Shown here one piece after another: positions 3,114 through 11,084 of a stretch of 64,000 nt of DNA. The notes below the pieces were generated by a model, which worked only from the letters and a program-made list of their open reading frames with translations, had not been told where the DNA came from and searched no databases. The translations under genes were made by a program, and so were the position numbers. The DNA is from Auraticoccus monumenti. GTDB lineage: Bacteria; Actinomycetota; Actinomycetes; Propionibacteriales; Propionibacteriaceae. The stretch is from contig NZ_LT629688.1 in the NCBI RefSeq assembly GCF_900101785.1, positions 372,001 through 436,000 of the forward strand. The letters run 5' to 3'. Position 1 is the stretch's first letter. Each line of letters starts with the position of its first letter.

Positions 3114-3141
3114 GGAATATACCCCGGGGGGGTATAGTTCC
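3114..3141 (+). promoter_or_regulatory. CsoR/CstR/RcnR-type operator with embedded -10 box
   Basis: Inverted repeat TATACCCC (3118-3125), 3-nt GGG spacer, GGGGTATA (3129-3136), flanked by GGAA and TTCC arms. The AT-cap, C-tract, G-tract, AT-cap layout is that of operators bound by CsoR-superfamily repressors (copper, nickel/cobalt or sulfane-sulfur sensors). TATAGT at 3133-3138 matches a -10 box for the downstream gene, so binding would block transcription. No CsoR-family gene lies in the window. Confidence 0.7.
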
Positions 3142-3174
3142 GTCCCGACAGGAACCCAACCGAGCGAGGTAGCC

Positions 3175-3873
3175 ATGAGCCAGCCAGGTCACGACACCCA
3201 CCAGCACGAGGCCGCGCACGACCACGGCCACCACGCGCACGGCACACCCCACCCGGCGACCCGGTCGATGGCCCTGAGCGCCACCCTGCACTGCCTGACC
3301 GGTTGCGCCATCGGTGAGATCGCCGGGCTGATGATCGGCACCGCCCTCGGTCTGGGGACCGGCTGGACGATCGCACTGGCCGTCGGTCTGGCCTTCCTGG
3401 CCGGCTACACGCTGTCCACCCTGCCGCTGCTGCGGGCCGGCCTGGGGGTGGGCACGGCGCTCGGCGTCGTCCTCGCCGCCGACACCCTGTCGATCGCCAC
3501 CATGGAGCTGGTCGACAACACGGTGATGGCCCTCGTCCCGGGGGCGATGGACGCCGGTCTGGTCAACCCCGTCTTCTGGCTCGCGATGACGCTGGCGCTG
3601 GGCGTGGCCTTCCTGGCCGCCTACCCGGTGAACCTGGCGCTGCTCCGCCGCGGGAAGGGGCACGCCCTGACCCACGAGCACCACACCAGCACCGCTGCGG
3701 TGACCGGGGCCCGCCGCTTCATCCCGGCCCTGTCCACCTCGACCCTGGTGGCGGCCATCGCCGCCTTCATGCTGGCCGGGTTCCTCGTCTCGCTCTACGA
3801 CAGCCTCGGCGAGCCGCCGGCGACGCACGCGGCCGGGCCGGTCGGCACCCCGCTCCACCCCGGCGGGCGCTGA
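3175..3873 (+). CDS. DUF4396 family membrane protein, His-rich N-terminus
   Basis: 232 residues. The first 35 residues are cytosolic-looking and histidine-rich (HDTHQHEAAHDHGHHAH), a typical metal-chelating stretch. Four hydrophobic segments follow at roughly residues 45-65, 70-90, 95-115 and 140-160, then another His patch (HALTHEHH) and a last segment near 185-205. The HCLTGCAIGEIAGLMIG motif and the overall pattern match DUF4396 proteins. The ATG at 3175 has GAGGT upstream. A CsoR-type operator sits 38 bp before the start, so expression is probably induced by a metal ion or reactive sulfur. A transport or metal-handling role is inferred; the family has no settled function. Confidence 0.85.
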   Translation: MSQPGHDTHQHEAAHDHGHHAHGTPHPATRSMALSATLHCLTGCAIGEIAGLMIGTALGLGTGWTIALAVGLAFLAGYTLSTLPLLRAGLGVGTALGVVLAADTLSIATMELVDNTVMALVPGAMDAGLVNPVFWLAMTLALGVAFLAAYPVNLALLRRGKGHALTHEHHTSTAAVTGARRFIPALSTSTLVAAIAAFMLAGFLVSLYDSLGEPPATHAAGPVGTPLHPGGR

Positions 3874-5599: not shown

Positions 5600-6274
5600 A
5601 TGGGAGTCGGCGACTTCGCCCGCAACCTGGTCCCAGCCGCCCGCAACGCCCCCCAGGCGGCCGGTGGCGCGATGCGGGTGCTGCTCGAGCTCGGCATCGA
5701 CGGCTTCGCCCAGCTGCCCGGCGCCAAGGCCGTCGCGGTCAAGCAGCTGCAGAAGCACGGATCGGTCGACGCGGCCATCGACGCGCTGGTGCTCAACCAC
5801 GTGGCGCTGTCCTCGGCCCAGGGCTTCATGTCCAACGTGGGCGGGGTGCTGGCCAGCATCGTCTCCATCCCCGGCAACCTGGCCGGGTTGTCGGTGCTGC
5901 AGATCCGCATGGTCGGGGCGATCGCGCACCTGCGCGGCTACGACATCGACGACCCGCGGGTCCGCACCGGGATGATGATGTGCCTGCTGGGCGGTGACCA
6001 GGTCGTCCGCCTGATCGAGAAGGGGCTGCTGCCCTCCACCCCGATGGCCGTGGCCACCGCCCCCGTCTTCGACCCCGACCTGGACCGCCGCGTGGCCGAG
6101 CGGGTCGTCCGCGAGATGGCCGCCCGGGTGGGCGGCACCAACGGCGCGCTGCTGCTGACCAAGCGGATCCCGCTGGTCGGCGGTGGCGTCGGTGCCGTGG
6201 TCGACGCCGCCACCACGCGCCAGGTCGGCGTCTTCGCCGGCAAGGAGCTCCGCCGGCGCCGCAGCCTCACCTGA
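5600..6274 (+). CDS. EcsC family protein
   Basis: 224 residues. Hydrophobic and Gly-rich segments around residues 70-105 (GVLASIVSIPGNLAGLSVLQIRMV followed by AIAHLRGYD) and near the C-terminus (RIPLVGGGVGAVVDA) are typical of the EcsC family, membrane-associated proteins named after the Bacillus Ecs locus and without a defined activity. ATG 5600 is chosen for its AGAGGAGA ribosome-binding site; the frame is open earlier but without a start of similar quality. A TAGGCT -10 box at 5568-5573 gives a short leader. Single gene, ending at a strong bidirectional hairpin. Confidence 0.85.
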   Translation: MGVGDFARNLVPAARNAPQAAGGAMRVLLELGIDGFAQLPGAKAVAVKQLQKHGSVDAAIDALVLNHVALSSAQGFMSNVGGVLASIVSIPGNLAGLSVLQIRMVGAIAHLRGYDIDDPRVRTGMMMCLLGGDQVVRLIEKGLLPSTPMAVATAPVFDPDLDRRVAERVVREMAARVGGTNGALLLTKRIPLVGGGVGAVVDAATTRQVGVFAGKELRRRRSLT

Positions 6275-6295
6275 GCCCCACCCGCACCCGGGACC

Positions 6296-6333
6296 ACGAC
6301 GGGCCGCCCTGCAGCTGCAGGGCGGCCCGTCGT
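6296..6333. terminator. Bidirectional terminator hairpin
   Basis: Perfect 38-nt palindrome (19-bp arms 6296-6314 and 6315-6333, effectively a small loop at the centre) placed between the convergent EcsC and isocitrate dehydrogenase genes, 22 nt and 17 nt from their stops. Confidence 0.85.
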
Positions 6334-6349
6334 CGCGTGGTGCCGGGGT

Positions 6350-8569
<2,220 letters not shown>

Positions 8570-9884: not shown

Positions 9885-11084
9885 ATGCACCTGTCCCACC
9901 TCCGTCCCCTCCGCCGGCTCGTCGGCTCCGCCATGGCCCTGGGCCTCCTGGCCACCGCCGTGGTGGGCACCACCGCCGCACCCGCCGAGGCCCGCCCCGC
10001 CGCCGAGAAGGCCAGCCGGCTGGACACGCTGCGCGACTGGGCGCCACGCAAGGTCGAGATCGGCAGCGCCGTGGCCGGCGGTGGTCACCACACCACCGCC
10101 GACTACCCCGAGCCCTTCCCCAACGACCCCACCTACCGCGCCGTGCTGGCCGAGCAGTTCAGCTCGCTCACCCCGGAGAACCAGATGAAGTGGAACTACA
10201 TCCACCCCGAGCCCGACCGCTACGACTTCGCCCAGGCGGACGCCATCGTCGCCTTCGCCGAGGAGAACCAGCAGGTCGTGCGGGGGCACACCCTGTTCTG
10301 GCACAGCCAGAACCCCGGGTGGCTGGAGGAGGGCGACCACAGCCCCGAGGAGCTCCGCGCCATCCTCAAGGACCACGTGGACACCGTGGTCGGTCGCTAC
10401 GCCGGACGCATCCAGCAGTGGGACGTGGCCAACGAGATCTTCGACGACAGCGGCGCCCTGCGCACCGAGGACAACATCTGGATCCGAGAGCTCGGTCCCG
10501 GCATCGTCGCCGACGTCTTCCGCTGGACCCACGCCGCCGACCCGGAGGCCCGGCTGTTCCTCAACGACTACAACGTCGAGGGCCCCAACGCCAAGGCCGA
10601 CGCCTACTACGCGCTGGTCCAGGAGCTGCTCGCCGACGGCGTCCCGGTGCACGGCTTCGGCGTCCAGGCCCACCTGGGGCTGCAGTACGGCTTCGACGGC
10701 CGGATGCAGGCCAACCTGCAGCGTTTCGACGACCTGGGGCTGGCCACCGCGGTGACCGAGCTCGACGTCCGTGGCCCCGTGGGCGCGGACGGCCAGCTCA
10801 GCCCCGAGCTGCGCCAGCGCCAGGCCGACTGGTACTCCCAGGCGCTCGAGGCCTGCCTCGGTGTCGACGGCTGCCGGTCCTTCACCGTGTGGGGTGTGCT
10901 CGACCAGCACTCCTGGGTACCGGGCACCTTCCCCGGTCAGGGCGACGCGCTGATCATGGAGGACGACTACGAGCGCAAGCCCTCCTACTGCGCCCTGCAG
11001 GAGACGCTGGCTGAGAGCACCCGCCCCGGTGAGCGCCGGTGGGAGCGGGTGTCGCCGCACCTCGCCTGCGCCGACCTCGACTGA
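9885..11084 (+). CDS. Secreted endo-1,4-beta-xylanase, GH10
   Basis: 399 residues. Signal peptide: basic start (RPLRR), hydrophobic core to about residue 30, AXA-type cleavage near residue 36 (AEA). The rest is one GH10 catalytic barrel: conserved early segment (NQMKWNYIHPEP), RGHTLFWHSQNPGW, acid/base Glu184 in WDVANE, the LFLNDYN strand, and nucleophile Glu292 in TELDVR; VWGVLDQHSW closes the barrel. No carbohydrate-binding module follows, so this is a single-domain enzyme that cuts xylan backbone outside the cell. ATG 9885 has GGGAGA at 9875-9880. The promoter and an inverted repeat upstream suggest substrate-controlled expression. Confidence 0.95.
   Translation: MHLSHLRPLRRLVGSAMALGLLATAVVGTTAAPAEARPAAEKASRLDTLRDWAPRKVEIGSAVAGGGHHTTADYPEPFPNDPTYRAVLAEQFSSLTPENQMKWNYIHPEPDRYDFAQADAIVAFAEENQQVVRGHTLFWHSQNPGWLEEGDHSPEELRAILKDHVDTVVGRYAGRIQQWDVANEIFDDSGALRTEDNIWIRELGPGIVADVFRWTHAADPEARLFLNDYNVEGPNAKADAYYALVQELLADGVPVHGFGVQAHLGLQYGFDGRMQANLQRFDDLGLATAVTELDVRGPVGADGQLSPELRQRQADWYSQALEACLGVDGCRSFTVWGVLDQHSWVPGTFPGQGDALIMEDDYERKPSYCALQETLAESTRPGERRWERVSPHLACADLD

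Follow-up and report, generated by a model that had tools for sequence, protein, structure and literature searches.

The gene at 3175–3873 on the forward strand of the window (the whole 64-kb stretch of DNA analysed) encodes a DUF4396 membrane protein that is very probably a copper-handling protein controlled by CsoR and copper. Judging from sequence, this gene would be a second, unlinked target of the copper repressor CsoR, whose own gene heads the csoR-copZ-copA cluster elsewhere in the genome. The best-supported part of this reading is that CsoR represses the gene and that Cu(I) relieves the repression. We infer CsoR binding, copper induction, Cu(I) binding by the protein, and export in preference to storage or delivery. 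The presence of an operator at an unlinked gene suggests that CsoR regulons may reach past csoR-copZ-copA, and the proposal gives a domain of unknown function, DUF4396, a testable role.

Operator and regulator

The putative type 2 CsoR operator TATACCCCGGGGGGGTATA lies at 3118–3136 on the forward strand and ends 38 bp 5′ of the DUF4396 gene. The original prediction described a CsoR-type operator with a near-perfect inverted repeat; the repeat is in fact perfect, TATACCCC-GGG-GGGGTATA, with 8-bp arms and a 3-bp spacer. Both the sequence and a pattern search support the assignment: the site has a TAC-9-GTA core, TACCCCGGGGGGGTA (3120–3134), flanked by G/C tracts, and it matches the conserved positions of the Streptomyces lividans consensus ATATACCCCTNAGGGGTATAT, in which TAC-X9-GTA is given as essential in the accessible part of the source (PMC3902906). 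A putative −10 box, TATAGT (3133–3138, forward strand), was recognised without a −35 element, and its first four bases (TATA) are shared with the right operator arm. The predicted overlap of repeat and −10 box thus stands as a matter of sequence, but a formal sigma-70 scan found no −10/−35 pair and the promoter is therefore only putative. GAGG (3166–3169, forward strand), 5 nt upstream of the ATG, is a putative ribosome binding site.

Searching the 4.46-Mb genome with ATACCCCNNNGGGGTAT at up to two mismatches returned the window site (0 mismatches), CATACCCTAGGGGGGTATGG upstream of csoR-copZ-copA (1 mismatch) and one asymmetric site (2 mismatches) that has no TAC/GTA. Just two sites are therefore found at one mismatch or fewer, the DUF4396 and csoR-copZ-copA operators, and a reversed-pattern control gave 0 matches across the genome. 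A looser 15-base pattern yielded four more one-mismatch sites, outside those of the ATACCCCNNNGGGGTAT search. A search for the same operator at copper ATPase, rhodanese or mycothiol genes had been proposed; csoR-copZ-copA carries it, and at one mismatch or fewer of ATACCCCNNNGGGGTAT no rhodanese or mycothiol gene does.

That the palindrome is a chance occurrence or an unrelated element, such as part of a promoter and nothing else, seems to us extremely improbable. Its overlap with a −10-like box would fit such an origin, as would its surroundings, since no copper gene was found among the tested window neighbours of the DUF4396 gene, which include a formamidopyrimidine-glycosylase-like gene, a leucyl/phenylalanyl-tRNA transferase gene and an EcsC-like gene. 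However, 3118–3136 is the sole match with three mismatches or fewer in the window, none of 100 dinucleotide shuffles reached a match at that threshold, the only other near-exact site in the genome precedes csoR-copZ-copA, and the operator recurs at DUF4396 loci of other genomes, as detailed below.

Exactly one PF02583 match was found in the genome (one contig, listed as 100% complete), at 2739514–2739756 on the minus strand (104.5 bits against a cut-off of 22.8). This sole CsoR-family gene is about 2.36 Mb from the operator, in agreement with the earlier remark that no regulator is nearby, and it answers the accompanying proposal to search the genome for one; its presence is contrary to what would have refuted that prediction, a genome with no such gene. 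Its product has the C-H-C copper ligands at the aligned columns, with a spacing read from the sequence as C-x24-H-x3-C. The closest solved structure is S. lividans CsoR (4ADZ, E 3e-33), with which it has an RLRR stretch in common in the alignment; RLXR is described as the DNA-contact motif of CsoR helix 1 in the part of PMC3902906 that is accessible. On the 3′ side of csoR are genes for a CopZ-like HMA protein (TIGR00003, above cut-off) and then a copper P-type ATPase (TIGR01511, above cut-off).

With one C-H-C CsoR gene and two shared sites, this regulator most likely acts on the DUF4396 operator in trans, with copper and not sulfur or Ni/Co as the signal. Control in trans, as originally suggested, thus finds support in the unlinked position of the sole CsoR gene and the matching sites at both genes. 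The signal had been left as Cu, Ni/Co or sulfur; it can be narrowed to copper because the only family member is of the C-H-C type, is nearest to 4ADZ and heads csoR-copZ-copA behind a matching site.

CstR and RcnR are members of the same family as CsoR. It is very unlikely that a CstR-type (sulfane-sulfur) or RcnR-type (Ni/Co) regulator reads the operator and that DUF4396 handles sulfur or Ni/Co. RcnR does turn up as a weak match, and near one mycobacterial DUF4396 gene lies a CsoR-family gene with C-G-C (L084:7095–7385), possibly a CstR-like sensor. Of 12 locus-linked CsoRs of other species, however, 11 are C-H-C; copper genes are frequent neighbours, and the single family member here is a C-H-C protein in a copper operon. 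Since the only member is C-H-C, sulfur or Ni/Co control was rejected for this genome.

Recurrence of the operator across DUF4396 loci

Three sets of loci (named, relatives and phylum-wide) were scored, an operator being called when at least 12 of 14 positions matched within 450 bp upstream. The named set comprises the best 80 loci of other genomes found via the peptide patterns HCLTGCAI and [VA]LAADT[LV]SI, and its conservation counts are biased by this choice; three loci with less than 150 bp of upstream sequence were dropped. The operator was present at 52 of the 77 loci scored from this best-80 set, 50 of these 52 having the strict TAC-9-GTA form. The remainder of the named loci gave a background of 13 matches in 881,342 positions, and only one of 1,540 shuffled upstream regions reached 12. 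Best-scoring csoR-family loci, used as a positive control, carried the operator in 30 of 30 cases.

Among the relatives, 16 of 25 loci had the operator, counting the window's own locus and leaving out L038, which fell below the cut-off; six of these loci duplicate genes of the named set, so the sets overlap. Four of the nine relatives without it (L016, L018, L019 and L032) share the strand of csoR and lie 3.2–3.7 kb downstream of that gene, two others are paralogues that do not have HCxxGC, one is behind an ArsR-type gene, and at L033 and L035 neither operator nor copper link was found. Phylum-wide, DUF4396 matches occurred in 50 of 396 genomes (42 above cut-off), and 19 of the 30 loci examined, i.e., the 30 matches that were given loci, had the operator. 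Eight HCLTGC-type loci of this set had none within 450 bp (at L160 a site lies farther off, 1.26 kb upstream). About a third of DUF4396 loci are thus without an operator. In an alignment of some 90 operators, whose own columns were chosen by score, no flanking base exceeded 50%, which argues against recent copying of whole promoters.

When gene starts were refined for the same 80 named loci, 53 had the operator, three matched 11 of 14 positions, and six were without it but had CsoR, CopA or DUF305 nearby. Two had too little upstream DNA, three had no clear motif ORF, and 13 fell into none of these classes; among the 13 are two behind an HMA gene (L105 and L108), one behind an ArsR-type gene (L085) and one HMBD fusion (L110). 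No copper link was found for nine of the best-80 loci, and L076, L082 and L111 could not be judged.

Divergent forms were also scored. No type 2 operator was found at the haloarchaeal (L153 and L155) and Ensifer (L154) plasmid loci, nor an operator at paralogues without HCxxGC (L036, L037 and L175) or at HCGAGC forms (L168 and L174). At L047 and at L085, which represents the same gene as L023, DUF4396 directly follows an ArsR-type gene (L047:5643–6011; L085:5642–5998) and there is no CsoR operator, possibly a change of regulator. Mycobacterial loci L042 (about 5740 and 10360–10440), L074 and L082 have further type 2-like sites near DUF4396.

DUF4396 was seen in Actinobacteria, Saccharibacteria and Microvirga, and haloarchaea have a more distant form. 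It is present in 23 of the 146 genomes searched as relatives, our own included, and its absence from the other 123 marks the gene as accessory. All 23 bearers have a CsoR-family gene, as do 115 of the 123 non-bearers; CsoR being so common, co-occurrence alone says little. None of 14 control genomes had DUF4396 above the cut-off, which may explain why the family is unstudied.

Copper-related neighbours

Neighbours were clustered by BLAST to one representative, and the Pfam check applies to the representatives alone. In the best-80 named set, the commonest conserved neighbour was DUF305 (18 of 80), and CsoR (12 of 80) and CopA-like ATPases (nine of 80, two of them just 33% identical) were also near DUF4396. 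None of these three was near in 37 of the 53 operator-bearing named loci, so in most cases the operator is retained without them. Some operator-less DUF4396 genes sit within csoR-copZ-copA clusters. On the Kineococcus plasmid pKRAD01, the annotated order is csoR-HMA-copA-DUF4396, with type 2-like sites preceding csoR but no such site immediately 5′ of DUF4396. In Streptomyces clavifer, the gene adjoins one for a four-helix copper-binding protein, and the operator is present. An HMA gene is just 5′ of DUF4396 in two Microvirga, and the L110 protein (5932–6558) is a DUF4396 with an N-terminal HMBD (PF19335, 46.6 bits against a cut-off of 23.6).

Other arrangements were noticed around these genes. 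At L179:1399–2760, DUF4396 is fused to a C-terminal region weakly resembling YtkA, below cut-off. An ORF cluster found in eight loci (L080:6540–7700, L112:3013–3882, L083:4254–5258 and five others) lies between copZ and copA in several of them, and its representative matched no Pfam family above cut-off. The haloarchaeal proteins (L153:5713–6453 and L155:5647–6405) carry HCYSGCGAGE and are extended by an additional region at the N-terminus; near L153 are genes for a heavy-metal P-type ATPase, an HMA protein and a member of the plastocyanin/azurin family.

A compact arrangement occurs in Saccharibacteria, where a type 2-like operator is followed by DUF4396, CsoR and DUF305, in that order, at L114:5938–7166 and L118:192–1300; the operator of L114 matches 12 of 14 positions, and its last three bases are GTG instead of GTA. 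The same order is found at L101:4976–6131 (binned as Pyrinomonadaceae). At L099:19–1266, the genes are DUF4396, CsoR and DUF305, with less than 100 bp of upstream sequence, and L106 and L100 have operator, DUF4396 and CsoR. L091, L098, L099 and L100 are Saccharibacteria-type loci. No copper ATPase was found in the assemblies of L106, L114 and L118, whose completeness is not given. L114 and L118 each have one P-type ATPase, type II-like by its best matches (Ca-ATPase models, below cut-offs), and no P-type ATPase at all was found in the assemblies of L106 and L110, again of completeness not given. Neither an operator nor CsoR was found near L110. A copper ATPase above cut-off is present in the genomes of L100 and L101, and in the assemblies of L091, L098 and L099 the matches to copper ATPases are partial or fall below the cut-off.

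The DUF4396 protein

The 232-aa product of 3175–3873 matches PF14342 (E 1.5e-39, 136 bits against a gathering cut-off of 27), which is its only Pfam hit; nothing was found in NCBIfam. An AlphaFold2 model built with 55 sequences shows a four-helix core (pLDDT 90.3, pTM 0.82). No energy-coupling domain was found, nor were the E1-E2 ATPase and HAD hydrolase domains of P1B copper ATPases.

Three motifs are conserved in the family: HCxxGC..GE, DTxSI..ME..DN and GHAxxH. In this protein they fall, all on the forward strand, in HCLTGCAIGE (residues 39–48 of helix 1; 3289–3318), whose conserved positions are candidate metal ligands; in DTLSIATMELVDN (residues 103–115; 3481–3519), a conserved polar/acidic face of helix 3; and in GKGHALTHEHH (residues 160–170; 3652–3684), which follows helix 4. 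In a set of 49 members, obtained by profile searches and filtered by a motif expression, H39, C40, C44 and E48 of helix 1 were found in all 49 and were likewise invariant among the 55 aligned sequences; because of the filter, the set is blind to how often the Cys pair has been lost. D103, T104, S106, M110, E111, D114 and N115 of helix 3 were also kept in 49 of 49, and H163 and H167 in 48 of 49. Helix periodicity suggests that the conserved helix residues cluster. A wider collection of 132 members (126 distinct cores, six genes being shared by the relatives and named sets) had G(R/K/Q)GHAxxH in 125.

The original prediction drew attention to a His-rich N-terminus. The tail does hold nine His in residues 1–38 (3175–3288, forward strand), but it is variable in the family: 42 of 132 members have one His or none in this region and 76 have at least four, and the candidate ligands lie instead in the membrane core. 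The tail was thus rejected as a defining part of DUF4396, and given the 42 it looks dispensable. Mean Arg/Lys counts are 1.24 in loop 2 and 2.20 after helix 4, compared with 0.00 for loop 1 and 0.04 for loop 3, which points to both ends of the core being cytoplasmic; the tail and GHAxxH would therefore face the cytosol.

Copper model and alternatives

We propose that, at low copper, apo-CsoR would occupy the operator at 3118–3136, covering the presumed −10 box, and keep the gene off. A rise in Cu(I) would fill the C-H-C site and release CsoR, and DUF4396 would be made along with CopZ and CopA and would then handle cytosolic Cu(I) at the membrane. The metal-handling role put forward earlier is thus upheld as far as sequence can tell, and narrowed to copper. 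Since copper excess is the condition in which CsoR targets are produced, uptake is unlikely, and this leaves export, or storage and delivery.

Our preferred mechanism, which we hold tentatively and regard as just short of probable, is Cu(I) export. DUF4396 would act as a four-helix carrier in which the GHAxxH segment, together with the His tail where present, may collect Cu(I) on the cytoplasmic side and pass it outward along a His/Cys/Met/acidic path of helices 1 and 3. Export is favoured by the position of the invariant residues within the membrane core, by the apparent dispensability of the tail, and by L106, L114 and L118, which have operator, DUF4396 and CsoR in assemblies that yielded no copper ATPase. 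Should DUF4396 export Cu(I), a small membrane protein would be added to the copper defence of bacteria.

Alternatively, DUF4396 may be a CsoR-controlled membrane store or chaperone that does not itself take Cu(I) across the membrane but buffers it or passes it to CopA, DUF305 or cuproenzymes. This would agree with the many members rich in tail His, with DUF305 as a frequent partner, with the CopA and CopZ of the same genome as recipients, and with an energy-coupling domain not having been found. We nevertheless consider it rather unlikely: the tail is poor in His in 42 of the 132 members while the intramembrane residues are invariant in the aligned ones, and the three Saccharibacteria operons have no copper ATPase found as recipient, in assemblies whose completeness is not known.

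Returning to export, a broader hypothesis is conceivable, if slightly more doubtful than export by the protein itself. The HCxxGC branch of DUF4396 may represent unrecognised, ATPase-independent Cu(I) exporters under CsoR, and in some Saccharibacteria the cassette of operator, DUF4396 and CsoR, often with DUF305, might be the whole inducible copper defence, replacing CopA/CopZ.

Comparison with known systems

Our literature search, which left subscription journals mostly outside, found nothing on the function of DUF4396. The family is mentioned incidentally near a metal-resistance island in the accessible part of an Acidihalobacter study (PMC7760498), and nothing on the DUF4396 gene was recognised in the accessible part of a copper proteomics study of Kineococcus radiotolerans (PMC2928746), which was searched by general terms instead of the gene's old locus tag. 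The CsoR meta-regulon of gut Firmicutes, as far as that source is accessible (PMC4938975), contains other membrane families; these published predicted targets are distinct from DUF4396, a term that does not occur in the full text.

Structural comparison offers a lead only. A PDB sequence search gave a best E of 0.2, Foldseek gave nothing better than E 0.9 for either model, and no solved structure was convincing in VIA-align (best Z 7.6). The best alignments are to the TRIC channels 5wuf (Z 7.6 over 109 residues, 3.2 Å) and 5h36 (Z 7.0, 109 residues, 3.4 Å), a likeness that is below the tool's meaningful level for helical bundles and is tied in the second alignment with an unrelated chain (Z 6.9).

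The regulatory side has closer counterparts. The type 2 operators of S. lividans csoR, copZA1 and copZA2, as given in the accessible part of PMC3902906, have a TAC-9-GTA core with C/G tracts, as here; the window operator differs in its GGG middle and in preceding DUF4396, far from csoR, instead of csoR or copZA. The CopA/CopZ efflux system of this genome shares the operator and regulator, and CopA is likewise a membrane protein with Cys, His and Met, whereas DUF4396 has a four-helix core in which no ATPase or HMA domain was found. Finally, the DUF305-domain protein CopM, a secreted, periplasmic copper-binding resistance protein according to the accessible part of its description (PMC4335983), is copper-associated like DUF4396 and belongs to the family that is its frequent neighbour; CopM is periplasmic, whereas an integral membrane location is predicted for DUF4396.
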